From Ruegeria arenilitoris (GTDB taxonomy: Bacteria; Pseudomonadota; Alphaproteobacteria; Rhodobacterales; Rhodobacteraceae), in assembly GCF_013030985.1 (NCBI RefSeq), contig NZ_WPYP01000002.1, positions 62,001 through 126,000 of the forward strand: a DNA stretch of 64,000 nt. The letters run 5' to 3'. The translations under genes and the position numbers were made by a program. Each line of letters starts with the position of its first letter. Within the stretch, counting starts at the first letter, position 1. The notes beneath the pieces were generated by a model. The model was not told the origin of the DNA. It worked only from the letters and a program-made list of their open reading frames with translations, and did not search any database. Shown here one piece after another: positions 5,324-18,746 of this stretch.

Positions 5324-5629
5324 TTACCCCTTCATCATGTTGACGTCTTCAACCGCGATGGTGCCACGGTTGCGGAAGAAACAGACCAGAATGGCCAGGC
5401 CAATCGCCGCCTCGGCCGCCGCAACGGTCAGAACGAACAGTGTAAACACCTGCCCGACCAGATCGCCGAGGAAACTGGAAAACGCCACGAGGTTGATATT
5501 CACCGCCAGCAGCATCAATTCGATGCTCATCAGCAGGATGATGACGTTCTTGCGGTTCAGGAAGAGCCCGAAGATGCCGATGACGAACAGCGTCGCCGCG
5601 ACCGTAAGATAGTGTTCAAGTCCGATCAT
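5324..5629 (-). CDS. nuoK: NADH-quinone oxidoreductase subunit K
   Basis: Small membrane subunit of complex I, homologous to MrpC and mitochondrial ND4L, with three trans-membrane helices and buried glutamates of the proton path ([13 protein letters not shown] and [12 protein letters not shown]). The start is [10 protein letters not shown], giving 101 residues, the family length. Its ATG overlaps the stop of the preceding small secreted-protein gene (ATGA). An upstream in-frame codon would add 16 residues lacking family character, so it was not used. Confidence 0.97.
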
Positions 5630-5871
5630 AGCATGACCTCTGCCCGGTAGTTTTCGATCGACGGAATCCAAGAGCACACACCAGAGTAGCCACAGTGGTA
5701 GTAGCCGTCTTCACCCGCCAAGCTTTTGGTAAAATCCAGTTCTTTTGCGACAATCGAATGAATAGTCGGCCCCATGTCGGAAGCCCAATAGTGAGTCCCG
5801 CCAAGATCGTTGGAAGCAAACTGCACAACGAACAACGCGACCAAGGTAGTGCCGAGAATTAGTTTCTTCAT
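5626..5871 (-). CDS. Small secreted protein of unknown function inside nuo operon
   Basis: 81-residue product starting [20 protein letters not shown], a clear signal-peptide-like N-terminus, so it is probably exported to the periplasm. The mature part is about 60 residues, aromatic-rich, with only two cysteines (HCGYSGVC), which could form a disulfide or bind a ligand. The start ATG shares a base with the nuoJ stop (TGATG) and its own stop overlaps the nuoK start (ATGA), so it is coupled on both sides. A 60-base sample (5701-5760) is 28/60 GC, below the neighbouring nuo genes. I do not recognise a family. Confidence 0.75.
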
Positions 5872-6473
5872 CACAACCCCTGCCCCGGTTTCACGTCCTT
5901 CAGCTCCATCGCCTCGGCCGGGTCGCGCATCATTTGGCCGACGATGTCCTGACGCTTGATGTCCTTGCGATGGCGCAGCGTCAGAACGATGGCACCGATC
6001 ATGGCCACCAGCAGGATCAGGCCTGCCAGTTGGAACAGAAGGAAGTATTGATCATAAAGAATGACGCCGAGCGCCTCGGTGTTGTGGCGGTCCACTGGCA
6101 CCGGCTGGGCAAGATTGGCCGCCGCGCCCTGCGCGCTGTCCCATGCCCCAAAGGCCATGACGAACTGCATCAGGATCACCAGACCGATCAGCAGGGCCAG
6201 CGGCATATAGCGCGCCATCTCGGCCTTGAGCTCGGCAAAGTCCACATCCAGCATCATCACCACAAAAAGGAACAGAACCGCGACCGCGCCCACATAGACG
6301 ATGATCAGCAGCATCGCCACGAACTCGGCGCCCAGCAGAACGAACAGCCCCGCCGAGGACAGGAACGCCAGGATCAGCCACAGCACCGAGTGCACCGGCT
6401 GGCGGCTGATCACCGTGAACAGCCCGCCGGTGATGGCGCTGATGGCAAACAGATAGAAGGCAAAGACGGTCAT
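5871..6473 (-). CDS. nuoJ: NADH-quinone oxidoreductase subunit J
   Basis: Membrane subunit of complex I (ND6 homologue) with five predicted helices in 200 residues. The conserved third-helix segment [24 protein letters not shown], which contains the pi-bulge region, is at about residues 50-75. The C-terminal tail ends in a short hydrophilic stretch. The ATG overlaps the stop of the preceding decarboxylase-like gene (ATGA) and the stop overlaps the next small gene (TGATG). Confidence 0.97.
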
Positions 6474-6880
6474 TGATCCTCATCCTCGTTGTCGCCCATG
6501 ACCTCCTGCGCCAGATCCAGCGCGCGGGTCATGGCCGGGATGCCGGCAAAGACCGACATCTGACCGATCGTTTCCACGATCTCTTGTTTCTTGGCACCCG
6601 CTTCCAGCGCGTGACGCACGGTCTGACGAACAGCCGAGTCCGCCTGTGCGCCCTGACAGGTCAGCCCGGCAAGTGTCAGCAGCAGGCGGGTTTTGGCATC
6701 CAGACCGTCCTTGTTGACGGTGTTGCCGAACATCATTTCCATGACCTCTTTGGGCATGGTCGGCCACAGCGCCTCGAACCCCTTGGGCGAGAAGTTTTCC
6801 ATCGCCGGGTTCATCGCCTTGGCCATGTCCTGAGCCTGCTTCATCATCAGCTCGAACGGATTTGTCGGCGTGTCACTCAT
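6470..6880 (-). CDS. Carboxymuconolactone decarboxylase-like protein in nuo operon
   Basis: 136 residues. The C-terminal half (about 55-130) has the helical pattern of the carboxymuconolactone decarboxylase/AhpD superfamily: [18 protein letters not shown], then [20 protein letters not shown] and an [10 protein letters not shown] helix. One cysteine is present rather than the CxxC of AhpD peroxidase-reductases, so redox activity of that kind is not supported. The first 50 residues are Met-rich and amphipathic. It overlaps nuoI upstream and nuoJ downstream by ATGA, so it is made in step with complex I. The function is unknown; a role tied to complex I is inference from position. Confidence 0.85.
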
Positions 6881-7373: not shown

Positions 7374-8411
7374 TCAGCCTCCTACGCTCCACCGGGCGAA
7401 GATGCCCCAGAACCATTCGAATTTCGCCGCAAAGGCCACGAACACCACCCAGGCCAGCGAGAACGGCAGGAACACTTTCCAGCCCAACCGCATCAACTGG
7501 TCATAGCGGTAGCGGGGCGTGATTGCCTTGACCATCGCGAAGATGAAGAAGAAGAACGCCATCTTGCCGACCATCCACAGGACACCGTCGGGAAGACCCG
7601 GGATCGGCGACAGCCAGCCGCCGAAGAACAGCAGCGTGGTCAGCGCGCACATCAGGAAGATCGCGATATATTCACCAGCCATGAACAGCAGGAACATCGT
7701 GGCAGAATATTCCACCTGATATCCGGCCACGAGTTCCGATTCCGCCTCGGGCAGGTCGAAGGGCGGGCGGTTGGTTTCGGCGAGCGCCGAGATAAAGAAC
7801 AGGAAGACCATCGGGAAATGCGGCAGCCAGTACCAGCCAAAGAAGCCATAGCCGGTATCCTGCGCGCCCACGATGGAGCCAAAATTCATTGATCCAGTCG
7901 AGATGATCACACCGATGATGATCAATCCAATTGACACTTCGTATGAGATCATTTGCGCCGCAGACCGCAGCGACCCAAGGAACGGATACTTTGAGTTCGA
8001 CGCCCAACCGCCCATTATCACGCCATAAACCTCAAGCGAGGACACAGCAAACACATACAGAACCGCCACGTTCAGGTCTGACAAAACCCAGCCGTCGTTG
8101 AACGGGATCACCGCCCAGGCGATCAGCGACAGAACAAAGCTTGTCATCGGGGCCAGAATAAAGACGGCGCGATCTGCCCCGGCGGGGATCACGACCTCTT
8201 TCACGACGTATTTCAGCGCGTCGGCTACCGATTGCAAAATGCCATAGACGCCAACCACGTTGGGTCCGCGGCGCATCTGAACTGCCGCCCAGATCTTGCG
8301 GTCGCCATAAACAAGGAACAACAGCGAGATCATCACAAAGGCAACGACAGCAAGCACTTGCGCCAGAATGATGATGGCTATTCCGCCTGGGGTGTTAAAG
8401 AAATCAGCCAT
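7374..8411 (-). CDS. nuoH: NADH-quinone oxidoreductase subunit H
   Basis: Membrane subunit (ND1 homologue) that forms much of the quinone-binding cavity and the start of the proton path. The 345-residue product has about eight helices. Conserved loops are [21 protein letters not shown] near residue 50 and [21 protein letters not shown] near residue 210, which carries the conserved acidic cluster. Its start overlaps the end of a small upstream open frame by eight bases. Confidence 0.98.
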
Positions 8412-8619
8412 TGGTCCTCACACCGTGGGTATTCCGTTTTCCGCGAGCGATGCAAAGGCCATGTGCCTGCGCAAACTGCGGCTGGGTCGGCGCGTTGGTG
8501 TAAACAGCATCTGCCGCCATTACGCCACCCTTAATCTTGGGTTTCACACACAAATCAGCCGCGGCGTACTGCCACCCGGCAGTCGCGTTTGCCTGTGGTA
8601 TGAAACAGGTCTGGTTCAT
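8404..8619 (-). CDS. Hypothetical 71-residue protein between nuoG and nuoH
   Basis: The ATG overlaps the nuoG stop (ATGA) and the reading frame ends eight bases inside nuoH, so it fills a gap of about 200 bases that would otherwise be untranslated. The product is hydrophilic, with three cysteines, two in the N-terminal third, and no signal peptide or membrane helix. No family is recognised. The overlap geometry matches the other coupled genes of the operon and is the main support. Confidence 0.5.
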
Positions 8620-10644: not shown

Positions 10645-11091
10645 TTACCCTTTCAGAAAAGCGCCAATCGAGGTTTCATTGGAAATTTCGAGCCGACCGG
10701 CTGCGCAGAAAGTCTCAGCTTCTCCAATTACGATCCCGCGTTTTTGTATGTACGCAATTGCATCATCCTGAACCCGCTTGCGTGGCAGGTTTCGAGCAAG
10801 ATACTTAAAATCGCTCTCACGGTATCCCTCTGCTTCGTATTTCTCAGTCAGGGATTTGCTCGTTTTGTTTATCTGCGAACGGTTGAGAGTCAGAGAACGA
10901 CATTCGCTTGCTATTTGATCGGCTATCGCATTCGCAAATGCGAAGTCGTAAACGTCTGATGGCAGCTCGCCTCGGAACTCGGCACGGGAAACGGAAGAGT
11001 TGGCAGAGCTGTCAGTCGTGGTCGCGCAGGCACTAAGTGCCAACAGCAGCGCGACACCGATTGCGCCAGTTTTCAGAGTTTCAATACCCAT
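10645..11091 (-). CDS. Lipoprotein, diverged DUF5333-like, in nuo operon
   Basis: 148 residues. The N-terminus is a lipoprotein signal (hydrophobic stretch, then LSAC), so the mature protein should be membrane-anchored. The rest aligns end to end with the next gene upstream: IADQIASEC, then [16 protein letters not shown] and the C-terminal [20 protein letters not shown], matching IANEISEYC, LGYSDKEI, AYLAQHGV and SFCTLGQKEIERNSAIGVYL. Two cysteines (SEC, TFC) are conserved between the copies. It lies three bases after the upstream gene and just before nuoG. Base composition is lower in GC than nuoG. I infer duplication and divergence of a DUF5333 gene. Confidence 0.75.
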
Positions 11092-11094
11092 CCG

Positions 11095-11499
11095 TCAATT
11101 TGCCCTCAAATAAACGCCAATGGCGCTGTTTCTTTCGATTTCCTTCTGCCCCAACGTGCAGAAAGAGTTCGGATTTTCATACGTGACGCCGTGCTGGGCC
11201 AAGTACGCCTCGCCCTTGGCGCGCATCCTGTCCTTTTCAGCGTCGGAATCCACATAGGCCCGGATTTCCTTGTCCGAGTAGCCCAGCTTGTTCGCCTTAG
11301 ATCGCAGATCCCACATCACACCTATCGCCTTCAGACGGCGCCCGCTGATCGACGGGCAATACTCTGAAATCTCGTTTGCAATGGCGATGTAGTAGAGTTC
11401 GTTGTCGATCTCTTTGACTTCGCGCAAGGGCGGTTTGGCTTCGGCTAGGGTAGGCAGGGCCAATACCGAGATCAATGCGAGCGTTTTCATACCAGACAT
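11095..11499 (-). CDS. DUF5333 family periplasmic protein in nuo operon
   Basis: 134 residues starting MSGMKTLALISVLALPTLAEA, a cleavable signal peptide ending near residue 21. This start is chosen because AAAGGA lies about seven bases upstream; a frame 114 bases longer adds no family sequence. The mature protein has the pattern I associate with DUF5333, a Rhodobacteraceae family found in nuo operons: two conserved cysteines (EYC, SFC) and the closing EIERNSAIGVYL. Function unknown; an assembly or stability role in complex I is only suggested by location. A stable hairpin precedes the ribosome binding site. Confidence 0.82.
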   Translation of the reverse strand: MSGMKTLALISVLALPTLAEAKPPLREVKEIDNELYYIAIANEISEYCPSISGRRLKAIGVMWDLRSKANKLGYSDKEIRAYVDSDAEKDRMRAKGEAYLAQHGVTYENPNSFCTLGQKEIERNSAIGVYLRAN

Positions 11500-11509
11500 G
11501 ACAATTCCT

Positions 11510-11534
11510 TTCGTCTTGGGAAACCCAAGACGAA
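11510..11534 (-). other. Perfect 11-bp hairpin before the DUF5333 gene
   Basis: TCGTCTTGGG and its complement flank a three-base loop, making a perfect stem of 11 bp. On the transcript its 3-prime arm ends next to the AAAGGA ribosome binding site of the DUF5333 gene. There is no T-run on either side, so it is not a normal terminator; it may act as an RNA processing or stability element or limit translation. Confidence 0.7.
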
Positions 11535-11597
11535 GGGCTGTCGGGGCGCTATGCAATAACACCTCCCGCTTCATGGCCTGATATGCAAAAACACACT

Positions 11598-11993
11598 TCA
11601 TGGTCGCTGGCACGTTCCGGCAAATGTCAGTTTGTCGTCACTGATGCGCAGGTTCTGCGGCTCGGTATCCGGACCGACCTTCCAAACGATTTTGGAAGAG
11701 CCGAAGTTCTTGATACAGAACTTGGTTCCCTCAAACCGGCCAGCCTCGCGCGCGCCATCCAGCGAGGCAGAGACTTCGTTCACGACAACCGTAAAGTCAG
11801 CGGGTGACGCTTTTTTGTCGACGGGTTTCGCCTTGGCCCGGAACGCGTGACCGTCAAACAGAATCCGATCCGAAGACGGGGTGACAATCCCGCAAGCCGA
11901 AACCGTTGCCATCGCGACAACCACACTCAGCACAACGCTGTGATTTCTAAGATGCCTTAGCCCCAACATCCGATGTTTCCCCAGCCCCTTCAT
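11598..11993 (-). CDS. Putative lipoprotein of unknown function in nuo operon
   Basis: 131 residues when started at the ATG that shares a base with the stop of the MAPEG gene (TGATG). A later ATG (MLGLRHLRN) is also possible. The N-terminal hydrophobic segment ends in VSAC, a lipobox. The mature domain contains ILFDGHAFRAK, a SLDGAREAGRFEGTKFC motif and KIVWKVGPD, a pattern I have seen recurring in small Rhodobacteraceae lipoproteins but for which I have no name. Two cysteines besides the lipid-anchored one could form a disulfide. About 100 bases separate it from the DUF5333 gene. Confidence 0.75.
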   Translation of the reverse strand: MKGLGKHRMLGLRHLRNHSVVLSVVVAMATVSACGIVTPSSDRILFDGHAFRAKAKPVDKKASPADFTVVVNEVSASLDGAREAGRFEGTKFCIKNFGSSKIVWKVGPDTEPQNLRISDDKLTFAGTCQRP

Positions 11994-12409
11994 CAGAACG
12001 CTGCAACAAGCGCCATGAGGCCCATGACAAACATGCAGGCCCAGCCAACGACATAAAGAACCGATCGCAACCCGCTGTGAGGTTTGCCGATTCCGCGCAT
12101 ATGCACGACCAACATCAACAGACGCGCCAACAGCGCAACCGAAGCGAGAAGGTTCACCCAAAACGGGCTGACCCCCATCAGGATCGCGGCGACAGTGACC
12201 GTCAGATAGGCAGGCAGCGTTTCGGTCCCGTTCAGGTAGGCCCGGTTCAGGCGGTACGCCTTGTCGGAATAGTCCTGATCGGGTGTCGCCCCGGGCGCCA
12301 GTCCTTTACCTTGCTTGGCCAAGGCCGAAAACGGTGACAAGAACAGCACCACCAGGGTGAAGATCACCAGCGACGCAACTGCATGCCCATATTCCGCGAA
12401 GACTTCCAT
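11993..12409 (-). CDS. MAPEG family membrane protein
   Basis: 138 residues with four predicted trans-membrane helices and the MAPEG (membrane-associated eicosanoid/glutathione metabolism) signature: RLNRAYLNGTETLPAYLTVTV with its conserved R-x-x-R-A-x-x-N-x-x-E core, then a RLLMLVVHMRGIGKPHSGLRSVLYVVGW segment. Animal members are glutathione S-transferases or leukotriene synthases; bacterial members are mostly uncharacterised. It starts five bases after the nuoF stop, with GGAG inside the nuoF end, and is coupled to the lipoprotein gene downstream. Its substrate cannot be read from sequence. Confidence 0.9.
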   Translation of the reverse strand: MEVFAEYGHAVASLVIFTLVVLFLSPFSALAKQGKGLAPGATPDQDYSDKAYRLNRAYLNGTETLPAYLTVTVAAILMGVSPFWVNLLASVALLARLLMLVVHMRGIGKPHSGLRSVLYVVGWACMFVMGLMALVAAF

Positions 12410-13725: not shown

Positions 13726-13947
13726 TCAGCTGTCCTGACGCATACGCCAGAGTTGAAATATGTTGACGCCCGCATAGATAAATCCTGCCAGAGCGGCGAG
13801 ATCGAACAACAGCGCGTGGCGCGTCGTCAGTTCCAGTGCGGGGCCGACGTACAGGTTCATGGCAAGCCAGATCACCATCGTCACCGCAATGACAACGCCG
13901 ATATGTCGGCCCTTTCGGGCTATGGCCTGTTCCTTGTCCTTGTCCAT
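13726..13947 (-). CDS. DUF5337 family small membrane protein in nuo operon
   Basis: 73 residues: a charged start (MDKDKEQAIARKGRHIG), two predicted trans-membrane helices (about 18-35 and 45-63) and a basic tail WRMRQDS. This matches the layout I associate with DUF5337, a Rhodobacteraceae family seen between nuoE and nuoF. A short AGGG precedes the ATG. Position and topology suggest an inner-membrane accessory or assembly component of complex I, but no function is established from sequence. Confidence 0.82.
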   Translation of the reverse strand: MDKDKEQAIARKGRHIGVVIAVTMVIWLAMNLYVGPALELTTRHALLFDLAALAGFIYAGVNIFQLWRMRQDS

Positions 13948-13979: not shown

Positions 13980-15098
13980 TTAGTCTTCGTAAGTGCCGTC
14001 TTCCTTGGCACGTTTGGCGAATTCGGTCTCCTCACCCGCCGCAAGCTTGGCCGCCTGTTCGATCCAGCCATCGCGTTCGATCCGGCCTTTGAACTTCAGA
14101 CGCGCATCCACCCAGGCCACCTGTTCAGGCGTCCAGGCCGCGATCTGGTCGTAGTGGAAGAAGCCCAGCTCGTTCAGTGTTTCTTCCAGCTTTGGCCCAA
14201 CGCCTTTCAGCAGCTTGAGGTCATCCGCCTTGCCGTCCCGCGCCGCGGTCAGCGTTTCGGGCTGGTCCTCTTTGACCTCTGCCGGTTCGGGCTTGGCTTT
14301 CGCCTCTTCTGCCTGCTTTACAGCCGGCTTGGGCGTTTCAGGCGCTTTCGGAGGTTTCGGAGCCGCCTTGGTCGCCGCCGCCTTACCGTCCTTGCCCAGC
14401 CAAGGGGTCAGGATCGGAACCTCGGTCCCGTCAATGCGCTTGACCGTGTCACCCAGATCAATCGCCAATTCGACACTTGCGTTGTACTGAGGCTTGCCCG
14501 CTTCATATTCAGCCAGACTGCTCAGGCCCTTCAGCGGTTCCGCTGCATAACGCCCGTTCTGCGGACCCGGGGTCGGTACCCTGCCCGCCACCAGATCGTC
14601 GACGATCTTGCCAAAGCTCTCGGCAGTCAGGTCTTCGTAATAATCCTTGCCGATCTGCGCCATCGGCGCGTTGGTGCAGGACCCGAGGCATTCCACCTCT
14701 TCCCAGCTCAGCTTGCCATCGGCGGACAGTTCATGCGGCTTGGCCGCGATCTTTTCCTTGCAGACCGCGATCAGATCTTCGGCCCCGCAGATCATGCAGG
14801 ACGTCGTGCCGCAGACCTGAATATGCGCAACCGAGCCAACCGGCTGCAGCTGGAACATGAAGTAGAATGACGCAACCTCAAGCACGCGGATATAGGCCAT
14901 GCCCAGCATGTCAGCGACGGATTCAATCGCCGGGCGGCTCAGCCAGCCCTCCTGCTCCTGCGCACGCCACAGCAGCGGAATGACCGCGCTGGCCTGACGC
15001 CCTTCGGGGTATTTGGTGATCTGCGCTTCTGCCCATTGCTGGTTTGCAGCGGAAAAGGCAAAGCTCTCGGGTTGTTCGGGGTGGAGGCGTCTGAGCAT
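13980..15098 (-). CDS. nuoE: NADH-quinone oxidoreductase subunit E with C-terminal HhH extension
   Basis: Peripheral-arm 24-kDa homologue. Residues 1-175 are the thioredoxin-like NuoE domain with 2Fe-2S (N1a) ligands C96, C101, C137 and C141. Residues about 240-290 form a Pro/Ala/Lys/Glu-rich linker, and residues about 294-350 hold a helix-hairpin-helix-like domain ([20 protein letters not shown]). Total 372 residues, roughly double a minimal NuoE; such extensions occur in Rhodobacteraceae. The start is the ATG that shares a base with the upstream gene stop (TGATG). A frame 96 bases longer is a shadow of that gene. Confidence 0.96.
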
Positions 15099-15529
15099 CA
15101 ACTGGCTCCTAAGTCGCGCACAAAACACAAGGTATGTGCGTCGCTTTCGTTTGACATAATTACAAAGTTGCGAGTTCCAGTGGGTATTATCCACGACTGA
15201 ACAATTCCGGCTCGCTCGCTAAGGCAAGCGGATGTGATGTCTTTGAAACCCAAGCTAGCAGAACTCAAAACTCGTGCTGAAACGGCATGAGGGACGAATT
15301 TGTGCATCTCTTGCGAAACATTGATGATGTCTTCGCAAATTGAACCAGGCAACTCGCACCCATCAACAAGTGCGAGCATTGCGTCCAAATTCGCGCTGAA
15401 ACTGTCATTCCCTGAATCGACAAAGTCCATCCATCCGATGAAACGTTGTTCCCGGGTCTCTTCTGCCGCCAATGCTGCAGAACTCAGGCACATTCCGAGC
15501 ACCCCTGCTATGAGCAAGGTAACTCTCAC
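15098..15529 (-). CDS. Secreted protein of unknown function between nuoD and nuoE
   Basis: 143 residues from a GTG start that overlaps the nuoD stop (GTGA); the stop in turn shares a base with the nuoE ATG (TGATG). The N-terminus [21 protein letters not shown] is a signal peptide. The mature part has four cysteines ([23 protein letters not shown]), consistent with two disulfides in the periplasm. GC content is visibly lower than in nuoD and nuoE. No family is recognised. Confidence 0.78.
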
Positions 15530-16749
15530 CGGTCAATCTCCCCAAACACCACATCCATGGTGCCGATGATGGCGGCGACGTCGGCCAGTTGGTGGCCCTT
15601 GGCGACGTGGTCCATGGCTTGCAGGTGCAGATAACCCGGTGCGCGCAGTTTGGCGCGGTAGGGTTTGTTGGAGCCGTCAGCGACCAGATAGACGCCGAAC
15701 TCGCCCTTGGGGGCCTCGACGGCGGCGTAGACCTCGCCCGCAGGGACGTGGAAGCCTTCGGTATACAGTTTGAAGTGATGGATCAGGCTCTCCATCGAGG
15801 TCTTCATGTCCGAGCGTTTCGGCGGGGTGATCTTACCACGGGCCAGAACGTCGCCCGGGCAGTCGCGCAGCTTGCCGATAGCCTGTCGGATGATGTGCAG
15901 CGACTGGCGCATCTCTTCCATGCGGACGAGGTAACGGTCATAGCAGTCGCCGTTCTTGCCGACGGGGATCTGGAATTCGAACTCATCATAACATTCATAA
16001 GGCTGCGCGCGGCGCAGGTCCCATGCCAGCCCCGATCCACGAACCATCACGCCCGAGAAGCCGTATTTCTGGATGTCATCCTCGGTCACGACGCCAATAT
16101 CGGCGTTACGCTGCTTGAAGATGCGGTTTTCGGTCAGCAGACCGTCAATGTCATCCAGAACAGCGGGGAATTCGTGGCTCCACGCTTCGATATCGTCCAG
16201 CAGTTCCGGCGGCAGGTCCTGGTGTACACCACCGGGGCGGAAATAGGCGGCGTGCAGACGCGCACCACAAGCACGCTCATAGAACACCATCAGCTTTTCG
16301 CGTTCTTCAAAGCCCCAGAGCGGCGGCGTCAGCGCGCCCACGTCCATCGCCTGCGTGGTCACGTTCAGCAGGTGGTTCAGAATGCGGCCGATCTCGGAAT
16401 ACAGAACCCGGATCAGCGAGCCCCGGCGCGGCACTTCCACACCGGTCAGCTTTTCGATGGCGAGACACCAGGCATGTTCCTGGTTCATCGGCGCCACGTA
16501 ATCCAGACGATCGAAATACGGCAGGTTCTGCAGATACGTCCGGCTTTCCATCAGCTTTTCGGTGCCTCGGTGCAGCAAGCCGATATGCGGGTCGCAACGC
16601 TCGACAATCTCGCCGTCCAACTCAAGCACAAGACGCAAAACTCCGTGCGCCGCAGGGTGTTGCGGGCCGAAGTTGATGTTAAAGTTGCGGATCTTCTGTT
16701 CTCCGCTCAGCGCGTCTGTGCTGCCGTCATCGTATCTTGAGCCGTCCAT
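15526..16749 (-). CDS. nuoD: NADH-quinone oxidoreductase subunit D
   Basis: Peripheral-arm 49-kDa homologue that lines the quinone site with NuoB. The ATG shares a base with the stop of the 41-residue gene upstream (TGATG), giving 407 residues. Quinone-site motifs are [17 protein letters not shown] near residue 25, which carries the conserved His, and the [17 protein letters not shown] helix near 115. The C-terminal [13 protein letters not shown] and [25 protein letters not shown] segments are family-typical and end in EIDR. Confidence 0.98.
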
Positions 16750-16874
16750 CAACGCCCTCGTTTGTTCTTTTTCGCCTCGGCCCGGACCCGGACCTTTTCG
16801 GCTTCGGCCGCTTTTGCAGCAGCCCCTGCAAGCAAGACGCCCAATGCGCCTAAAATGATCAATTCGCCCATCAT
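16749..16874 (-). CDS. Tiny membrane-anchored protein (41 aa) between nuoC and nuoD
   Basis: The frame reads [20 protein letters not shown], then a charged Ala/Lys/Arg/Glu helix ending KKNKRGR. That is one membrane helix plus a cytoplasmic basic tail. Its stop shares a base with the nuoD ATG (TGATG) and its start is one base after the stop of the next small gene. Either of the two leading ATGs could be used. The coupling on both sides and the sensible topology argue that it is real, although no family is recognised. Confidence 0.65.
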
Positions 16875-16875
16875 G

Positions 16876-17052
16876 TCAGCGTCGCTCCATCTCTTGCAGC
16901 TTCATCGCCATCATCCACAGCAGGACAATCACGACCGGAGAGATGATGCATGCAAACGCCCAGTTCTTGTTGATCCCGAAATGCGGCAGCAGCTTGGTCA
17001 TCGGTACGACCGTTGCAACCACCAGTACAATCCAGATCAGGAACTCAAACAT
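16876..17052 (-). CDS. Small membrane protein (58 aa) between nuoC and nuoD
   Basis: The frame starts MFEFLIWIVLVVATVVPMTK and has two hydrophobic helices (about 3-19 and 32-50) joined by LLPHFGINKNWAF, ending in MKLQEMERR. A good ribosome binding site, AGGAG, lies eight bases before the ATG and overlaps the nuoC end. The H-F-G-I-N-K-N-W segment between helices looks like a recurring motif of small Rhodobacteraceae inner-membrane proteins, but I cannot name a family. With the 41-residue gene it fills the nuoC-nuoD gap completely. Confidence 0.75.
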   Translation of the reverse strand: MFEFLIWIVLVVATVVPMTKLLPHFGINKNWAFACIISPVVIVLLWMMAMKLQEMERR

Positions 17053-17057
17053 GATGA

Positions 17058-17657
17058 CTACTCCTGTTTTTCATCCCCCGGCAGAATGTAATTCGCACCT
17101 TCCCATGGGGACATGAAATCGAATTGCCGGTATTCCTGCACCAGGCTGACCGGTTCGTAGACCACGCGCTTTTGCGCCTCGTCATACCGAACCTCGGTGT
17201 AACCGGTGGTCGGGAAATCCTTGCGCAGCGGATAGCCGCGGAAGCCATAGTCGGTCAGGATGCGCCGCAGATCCGGGTGGCCCGAGAACAGGATGCCGAA
17301 CATGTCGAACACCTCGCGCTCGAACCAGTTGGCCGAGGGGTGAACGTCCACGATCGAGGGTACCATGTCCTCCTCGCGGATCGAGACCCGCAGGCGGATG
17401 CGCTGGTTCTGGTACATCGACAGGAAGTGGTAAACCACGTCGAACCGCTTGGCGCGTTCGGGGTAATCGACACCGGTGATATCCACCAGGGTCGAGAACT
17501 TGCAGTTCTGGTCGGACCGCAGGAATTCCACGAACTCCACGATGTTCGACGGGGCCACATCAACGTTCAGCTCGCCATGGGTCACGTCCCAGGACAGGAC
17601 ACAATCAGCCCGCTTCAGCTCCAGCTGGGCGCCGAGTTCCTTGAGTGCTTCGCTCAT
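17058..17657 (-). CDS. nuoC: NADH-quinone oxidoreductase subunit C
   Basis: Peripheral-arm 30-kDa homologue that joins NuoD to the rest of the arm. The 199-residue product has the signature ERE(V)[33 protein letters not shown] near residues 110-145. It starts 11 bases after nuoB and is separate from nuoD, unlike the nuoCD fusion of enterobacteria. Confidence 0.98.
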
Positions 17658-17668
17658 CTGCCCTCTCC

Positions 17669-18193
17669 TCAGCGTACGATGGTGCCGGTGCGGCGGATTT
17701 TGCGTTGCAGCTGCATCAGACCGTACAGCAACGCCTCAGCCGTCGGAGGGCAACCGGGCACGTAGATGTCCACCGGAACAACCCGGTCGCAACCACGCAC
17801 AACGGAATAGGAATAGTGGTAATAGCCACCGCCATTGGCGCAGGACCCCATTGAGATCACATAGCGCGGCTCTGGCATCTGATCGTAGACCTTGCGCAGC
17901 GCCGGGGCCATCTTGTTGGTCAGGGTGCCGGCCACGATCATCACGTCGGACTGACGCGGAGAGGCGCGCGGCGCGATGCCAAACCGTTCCGCATCATAAC
18001 GCGGCATCGAGGTGTGCATCATCTCAACCGCGCAGCAGGCCAGACCGAATGTCATCCAATGCAGCGAGCCGGTGCGCGCCCAGTTGATGATGTCCTCGGT
18101 CGAGGTCAGCAGGAACCCTTTATCCTGCAGCTCGGCATTCAGGGCCTGGGTGGCGACTTCTTTATCGACGCCAGCGGTGTTTGCACCCGTCAT
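17669..18193 (-). CDS. nuoB: NADH-quinone oxidoreductase subunit B
   Basis: PSST homologue that carries the terminal 4Fe-4S cluster N2, the direct electron donor to quinone. Starting at the ATG that shares a base with the nuoA stop (TGATG) gives 174 residues. Cluster ligands are the tandem C53-C54, C118 in [11 protein letters not shown] and C148 in [11 protein letters not shown] start ten codons earlier lies inside nuoA and was rejected. Confidence 0.98.
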
Positions 18194-18558
18194 CACTCCC
18201 ATTCCAGGGCCCCTTTCTTCCATTCATAGGCAAAGCCGATGGTCAGCACCGCCAGGAACACCATCATGGACCAGAAGCCCACATCACTGATGTCCTTGAA
18301 GCCCACGGCCCACGGAAACAGGAAGGCAATTTCCAGATCGAAGATGATGAAGAGAATCGAAACCAGATAGAATCGGACGTCGAATTTCATCCGCGCATCG
18401 TCGAAGGCGTTGAAACCGCACTCATATGCGCTGACCTTTTCAGGGTCGGGATTGCGGACGGCCAGTACCACAGCGGCAAGAATCAGTACGATTCCAAGGC
18501 CCACGGCGACGGCCAGAAACACCAGAATCGGGAGGTACTCCCGCAGCAGGTCTTCCAC
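18193..18558 (-). CDS. nuoA: NADH-quinone oxidoreductase subunit A
   Basis: Membrane subunit (ND3 homologue), first gene of the operon. The start is GTG at 18558, giving 121 residues beginning [24 protein letters not shown] lies about six bases upstream. The conserved [21 protein letters not shown] loop, with the cysteine known to change accessibility between active and deactive states in mitochondria, is at about residues 45-65. Three helices are predicted. Confidence 0.97.
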
Positions 18559-18746
18559 GAATAGCTCCTTTCCTGCGCATACCCCCCGGGGACGCGCCGT
18601 CAATTGGCGTGTTGACTGGACATTCTCTATCCGCGCCGGGTCAGAGGGTCAACCGAACACAAACGCGCAGGGGCTTAATAATCCACTTGCTTCCACAAAT
18701 GGAAAACCTGGCATTTGAGCGAATCTGTTTTCACCCTGAAAACGCG
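18559..18746 (-). promoter_or_regulatory. Upstream region of the nuo operon, candidate promoter
   Basis: This 188-base gap between the enoyl-CoA hydratase gene and nuoA must hold the main nuo promoter unless the operon is read through from the leucine genes. The best candidate I see is TTGACC (18647-18652) with a 17-base spacer to TAGAGA (18624-18629), which matches a sigma-70 box only moderately. A second weak pair, TTGACG and TATGCG, lies nearer the start codon. No terminator with a T-run is visible after the hydratase gene. Confidence 0.4.

Follow-up and report, generated by a model that had tools for sequence, protein, structure and literature searches.

Small membrane proteins such as CydX (cytochrome bd) and CcoM are encoded close to, or among, the genes of the respiratory complex in question. 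In Paracoccus denitrificans and Rhodobacter capsulatus, the nqo/nuo clusters also carry URFs between complex I genes. In Roseobacters, variable and poorly conserved novel genes have been described within sucCD, sucAB-sucCD, and sdhCDAB, some of them co-transcribed and seen by mass spectrometry, and the main text of that report contains neither the word nuo nor the word NADH (PMC3305630). The 2.3 Å structure of P. denitrificans complex I includes the extra subunits NDUFS4, NDUFS6, NDUFA12, and an inactive PIMT, and no small hairpin appears in the available part of its description (PMC11522691). In Rhodobacter sphaeroides, the 14 nuo genes were essential by Tn-seq on LB, and extra frames go unmentioned in the sections of the report available to us (PMC5513736). 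A limited literature search for nuoC-nuoD inserts, nuo URFs, and nuo-operon sulfotransferases returned nothing on the junction described here, which is no proof of absence. Our overlapping samples of 198, 57, and 350 genomes, one of them searched at too strict a threshold, gave no close match to P. denitrificans NuoC, the best reaching 76% identity.

Organization of the nuoC-nuoD gap

The window, that is, the whole stretch of 64,000 nucleotides of Ruegeria arenilitoris DNA that was analysed, carries a nuo operon on its minus strand. The closest named nuoC belongs to R. arenilitoris HKCCD9148, with 99% protein identity. The features of the gap between nuoC and nuoD, here called the slot, are as follows.

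17058..17657, minus strand: nuoC, NADH-quinone oxidoreductase subunit C, the upstream border of the slot (Pfam PF00329, 7.2e-49; NCBIfam NF004733, 1e-104)
17061..17065, minus strand: AGGAG, ribosome-binding site of the 58-aa gene, within the last nuoC codons and 8 nt 5' of the ATG
ATG at 17052 to stop at 16876, minus strand: 58-aa hairpin gene of type 1, encoding a predicted two-helix membrane hairpin
16885..16888, minus strand: GGAG, possible ribosome-binding site of the 41-aa gene, within the end of the 58-aa gene and 10 nt 5' of the ATG
ATG at 16874 to TGA at 16751-16749, minus strand: 41-aa gene, encoding a predicted single helix with a basic tail
15526..16749, minus strand: nuoD, subunit D, the downstream border of the slot (Pfam PF00346, 2.2e-118; NCBIfam NF004739, 1.1e-185)

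Within the 308-base gap, the 58-codon frame occupies positions 5-182 and the 41-codon frame positions 183-309. At the downstream end, the 41-aa stop and the nuoD ATG (16749) share one A in a TGATG junction. A sequence-only reading of this DNA had proposed that two such frames tile the gap, and its coordinates, the AGGAG site, and the overlap of the stop with the nuoD ATG were all correct. It had added that the frames were unannotated and would be missed by gene calling. This part is doubtful because standard gene callers take genes down to about 90 bases. No sigma-70 type promoter was found in a scan of 15400-18700.

The AlphaFold2 model of the 58-aa protein contains helices at residues 2-25, 29-36, and 38-57 (mean pLDDT 78, pTM 0.46), and that of the 41-aa protein contains one helix at residues 2-39 (pLDDT 81, pTM 0.38). 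With moderate confidence, the two proteins are thus predicted to be a two-helix hairpin and a single helix with a basic tail, respectively, which matches what had been read from the letters. Neither protein has a Pfam or NCBIfam match that counts. Searches of the PDB with the single proteins gave best E values of 1.5 and 2 to unrelated entries and the hairpin profile likewise gave no relevant match, so that no sequence relative in a solved complex I was found by either route. Kinship with DUF805 or DUF5684 was rejected. Both are absent from the 17 Pfam families matched by 22 slot hairpins at E values up to 1, and two of five scanned relatives matched them at E 0.009-0.09, under the gathering cut-off. 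Among plasmid records, the 58-aa protein had no match, and the 10 records with a nuoC match include no Rhodobacteraceae.

Several further non-core frames were observed on the minus strand of the same operon. They encode an unknown 143-aa protein (15098-15529), a DUF5337 protein (13726-13947), a MAPEG protein (11993-12409), two DUF5333 proteins side by side (10645-11091 and 11095-11613), a 71-aa frame (8404-8619), a carboxymuconolactone decarboxylase-like protein (6470-6880), and an 82-aa frame (5626-5874) that overlaps the listed nuoK frame. In NuoE (13980-15101), the Pfam match covers only residues 25-170 of about 373 and leaves a long C-terminal extension.

Coding status of the two frames

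It is conceivable that the frames arose by chance in a non-coding gap or one occupied by a regulatory RNA, and when the gap sequence was shuffled 20,000 times by dinucleotide, a single long frame near the 5' end did occur in 962 of the shuffles. A tiling like that observed, with a first frame of at least 50 codons starting no more than 12 nt from the nuoC stop and a second one that spans 35 codons or more and runs up to the nuoD start, occurred in 19 of 20,000. Conservation is a stronger test of gene status than this comparison. Profile searches of 54 Ruegeria genomes recovered the 41-aa gene in all 54 and the 58-aa gene in 53. The slots of these genomes (53 fetched, plus the window) were then compared by the Nei-Gojobori method, with 4 of the 54 41-aa genes left out for failing the motif used. 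Within the types of hairpin described below, dN/dS of the 58-aa gene was 0.066 (16 type-1 sequences) and 0.047 (33 type-2 sequences). For the 41-aa gene, the values were 0.049 (16 sequences, type 1), 0.123 (30, type 2), and 0.091 over 50 sequences. NuoC gave 0.03-0.04 in these comparisons, with 0.040 over 54 sequences.

Few amino-acid changes were seen solely in the proposed frame and in its opposite-strand mirror, the latter being expected of coding DNA. Variable sites of the 41-aa gene numbered 9, 6, and 34 at the first, second, and third codon positions in a first sample, and 22, 18, and 39 of 39 codons in a larger one. Across 26 hairpins, the residues W7, T14, P17, K20, L22, P23, F25, G26, W31, W46, and L52 are invariant. 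The gap reached no Rfam family at gathering score, with one match below threshold. Codon-position bias and frame-specific conservation likewise speak against a chance or RNA origin, which the substitution pattern refutes and to which we assign a negligible probability. The pattern indicates instead that both frames are protein-coding genes under purifying selection. The coding claim of the sequence-only reading is borne out by these values (dN/dS 0.05-0.12 within types), and the check proposed for it, a bias toward synonymous changes among relatives, was run and does not refute it. Across types, dN/dS of the 58-aa gene rises to 0.30 (16 Ruegeria sequences) and 0.27 (55 hairpins of the family), which suggests that selection between types is either weaker or adaptive.

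Contents of the slot in relatives

Slot contents were compared in the 80 nuoC loci closest to the NuoC of the window, of which one (L067) lacked nuoD and was dropped. Loci L002-L030, which had been picked via the hairpin, were excluded from the frequencies. To assign slot labels, a single seed of each family was extended through one round of profile search. A relative of the hairpin was present in 37 of the 79 named loci, a sulfotransferase without the hairpin in 8, and an NTF2-like gene alone in 2. The slot was empty in 19 loci and held something else in 13, of which 11 contained short frames of 32-60 codons. In the empty slots, which comprise the Phaeobacter loci together with several Pseudophaeobacter, Leisingera, and other loci, the nuoC stop and the nuoD start overlap or stand 4 bases apart.

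A broader sample of about one genome per genus contained 135 genomes among the matches listed for both genes, and nuoC and nuoD were adjacent in 133. A gene was counted as being in the slot when it lay on the same strand no more than 3 kb downstream of nuoC. By this measure, the hairpin occurs in 40 of the 133 genera, the alignment gap is below 100 bases in 38, and neither applies in 55. Ten of the 38 small-gap loci were fetched and all ten overlapped. Of the 55 remaining slots, 54 were fetched and contained a sulfotransferase (35, one of them together with GFA), GFA alone (6), an NTF2-like gene (3), or other genes (10). The labels are backed in Pfam by single examples of Sulfotransfer_3, GFA, Lumazine_bd_2, and, among the other genes, FlK thioesterase.

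Two kinds of slot resident deserve separate mention. Many Rhodobacteraceae genera have a sulfotransferase-like gene of some 290 residues at the nuoC-nuoD junction (L118, L120-L122, L124-L132, and others). Small one-helix-like proteins starting with MWFE, MWYD, or MWWS occur in the slot of Leisingera and others (L056, L069, L084, L104, L105, L136, L150). The MWFE type resembles the first four letters of mitochondrial NDUFA1, which we take to be most likely a coincidence. The 41-aa protein itself is narrow in range, with matches in 7 of 198 genera (5 strong, 2 weak). It looks by eye like the single-helix proteins found in the slot of Leisingera and Roseovarius, and this kinship was rejected after a profile comparison gave a probability of 20 over 11 columns.

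We placed the labels on a tree of 78 NuoC+NuoD rows, from which L034 and L099 are left out. The hairpin label changes 10 times, at least 4 of which are forced by supported branches, and the empty label changes 11 times, at least 8 of which are forced. The labels are clustered on the tree, as none of 500 label shuffles gave a count as low for either the hairpin or the empty state. Because of this clustering, turnover of the slot is repeated, not rampant. Thus, one junction of a conserved operon varies in gene content, and the comparison indicates that the nuoC-nuoD junction is a variable slot whose contents have repeatedly been lost, swapped, or replaced by unrelated genes.

The junctions themselves are tight. 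Of 80 loci, counted with the empty slots, 63 have a stop codon that overlaps the nuoD start, and in Ruegeria the stop of the 41-aa gene does so in 44 of 50 cases. Measured from the last base of the nuoC stop, the hairpin start lies at -4 or -1 in 26 of 38 loci and at +2 to +5 in 10. Such overlaps on both sides would suit frames that act as mere translational couplers or spacers for nuoD, the peptides themselves being idle. However, the amino acids are conserved, both in the dN/dS within types and in the 11 invariant residues over 26 sequences, and the empty slots join nuoC to nuoD directly. As such, a pure coupling role is highly improbable.

The sequence-only reading had compared the two proteins with CydX, and an obligatory small subunit of complex I would agree with their small size, their predicted membrane-spanning helices, their place in the operon, and their near-universal presence in Ruegeria (54 and 53 of 54). 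Yet the hairpin is not found wherever the complex is, being present in 37 of 79 named loci and 40 of 133 genera, and in 48 of 198 genomes of the one-per-genus sample even with weak matches included. When the slot region itself was searched, it was empty in Phaeobacter, several Pseudophaeobacter, Leisingera, and others, and one Ruegeria genome (G523) has no 58-aa gene. With 19 of 79 slots empty, other genes (sulfotransferase, GFA-type, or NTF2-like) in the slot elsewhere, and G523, an obligatory CydX-like role for these proteins is very unlikely, and as a general rule it is largely refuted. The distribution indicates that complex I in general does not require either gene. Because the contents of the slot have repeatedly been lost, swapped, or replaced in relatives, the 58-aa and 41-aa genes are probably not essential parts but helpful additions.

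Probable exchange of the hairpin gene within Ruegeria

Three types of hairpin occur in Ruegeria (16, 33, and 4 of 53). Hairpins of types 1 and 2 are 47-49% identical, while the neighbouring NuoC and NuoD of the same loci (8 including the window, against 7) are 91-99% and 97-100% identical. Type 2 is closer, with 64-82% identity, to the hairpins encoded at six loci that fall outside the main clade of Ruegeria. Two of these loci are also labelled Ruegeria, and the NuoC of the six is 81-89% identical. Four pairs of type-1 and type-2 loci were compared at the DNA level, where identity was 45-71% across the hairpin gene, 75-91% in the 41-aa gene, and 96-100% immediately downstream. Because identity falls over the hairpin gene and recovers across the 41-aa gene, the hairpin gene appears to have been swapped in place in Ruegeria. 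Fast divergence in place is a less likely alternative. The flank tree of Ruegeria is poorly resolved and swaps are not countable from it.

In G523 (L252), the 41-aa gene and the GGAG upstream of it are kept in a gap of 146 bases. This slot may represent either a deleted or a never-filled state.

Linkage of the hairpin to the nuo operon

In the 198 genomes of the family, the hairpin profile matched 52 places, 50 of which lie within the nuo operon. Forty-seven are at the nuoC-nuoD junction (46 by position and one in G130), and three lie just before nuoG, namely between nuoF and nuoG in G130 and G177 and, in G180, immediately ahead of nuoG close to the end of a contig. The pre-nuoG relatives belong to three genera (L186, 5109-5324; L267, 2259-2402; L268, 2582-2728). 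The remaining two of the 52 are weak (E 0.001 and 0.01) with no nuo gene nearby. Outside the family, 7 of 289 genomes in a class sample gave 8 weak matches. One of these, in another alphaproteobacterial family (L199, E 9e-10), again lies between nuoC and nuoD, and no nuo gene was present in the 3 kb of any of the other seven loci. In three such loci of other alphaproteobacterial families (L203, L204, L205), small two-helix-like membrane frames, in tandem in places, lie beside genes that resemble rlmN and argG by eye. The two frames scanned among them had no Pfam family above cut-off. These weak matches and a common motif suggest that the hairpins of the slot belong to a wider family of two-helix proteins, of which they would be the branch residing in nuo operons. 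The positions link the hairpin family closely to the nuo operon, which does not alone prove membership in complex I.

Discussion

The linkage of the hairpin family to nuo genes fits a tie with complex I, and its presence at two nuo junctions favours contact with the complex. The unrelated neighbours in the slot and the dispensability of its contents favour a different explanation, in which the junction is a tolerant insertion point and its residents are pure passengers, the hairpin and the 41-aa protein doing membrane jobs unrelated to complex I while being held there by exchange through the flanks. Sulfotransferase, GFA, NTF2-like, thioesterase, and other genes are found at the same place, 19 of the 79 named loci have no gene there, and seven of the eight weak out-of-family matches lie away from nuo genes. 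The Roseobacter genes within sucCD and sdhCDAB, as far as described in the available text (PMC3305630), are further variable novel genes in core operons of this kind. However, passengers alone would sit poorly with just two weak matches among 52 outside the nuo operon and with hairpins before nuoG in three genera. A passenger status is thus a serious possibility that we place somewhat below even.

We lean slightly toward a combined explanation in which these are coding, coupled, exchangeable, and nuo-linked genes, with an accessory role about evenly balanced. Ribosomes that finish nuoC would restart at each following frame in turn, first the 58-aa gene, next the 41-aa gene, and finally nuoD, and both peptides would thereby be made in step with complex I. 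The hairpin may insert in the membrane beside the membrane arm of the complex and serve as an optional, lineage-specific accessory in its assembly, its stability, or its lipid and quinone surroundings. The conserved nuoC and nuoD flanks are the probable sites of the recombination through which slot contents are exchanged. As a single functional guess, an optional complex I accessory is the best we can offer for the hairpin, and its chances seem just short of even; that slot residents elsewhere include soluble enzymes with no evident role in complex I counts against it, and so would the lack of a small hairpin among the four extra subunits named for P. denitrificans complex I (PMC11522691), should that species carry the gene. 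In the suggestion that the proteins stabilise complex I, the link of the hairpin to nuo genes (50 of 52 places) has held up, and the stabilising role is unproven. It is also imaginable, if rather unlikely, that recombination keeps this junction supplied with small membrane hairpins, that Rhodobacteraceae exchange them there, and that they bind and retune complex I; near-identical cores would then carry different optional subunits, in parallel to other slot genes such as sulfotransferases that perhaps act on the same membrane and quinone surroundings.

The core of complex I is strongly conserved, and a junction that turns over while keeping its overlapping stops and starts amounts to a natural experiment. 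What small optional membrane proteins do for a respiratory complex can be tested directly by comparing loci that have the hairpin with loci that lack it, or differing types that accompany near-identical NuoC and NuoD, and G523 offers a natural deletion-like state of the 58-aa gene that is useful for such tests. If the hairpins bind complex I, they would form a class of exchangeable accessory subunits that escaped notice by being so small. Otherwise, the junction would be a permissive insertion slot and a warning against inferring function from operon position.

Among known systems, the DUF5337 protein (PF17272), encoded between nuoE and nuoF of the same operon, is also small and has no assigned role, but it has a Pfam family, whereas the slot proteins have none. 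The slot proteins are like CydX and CcoM in size, predicted membrane helices, and gene placement. They differ from both in their patchy presence, the slot being empty in many relatives. The Roseobacter inserts in sucCD and sdhCDAB are alike in being variable genes inside core operons of the same bacterial group, while the nuo slot differs in belonging to the complex I operon, in having a defined resident family, and in the indications of in-place swapping. Finally, the URFs of P. denitrificans and R. capsulatus are, like the slot frames, extra frames amid the complex I genes of related bacteria.
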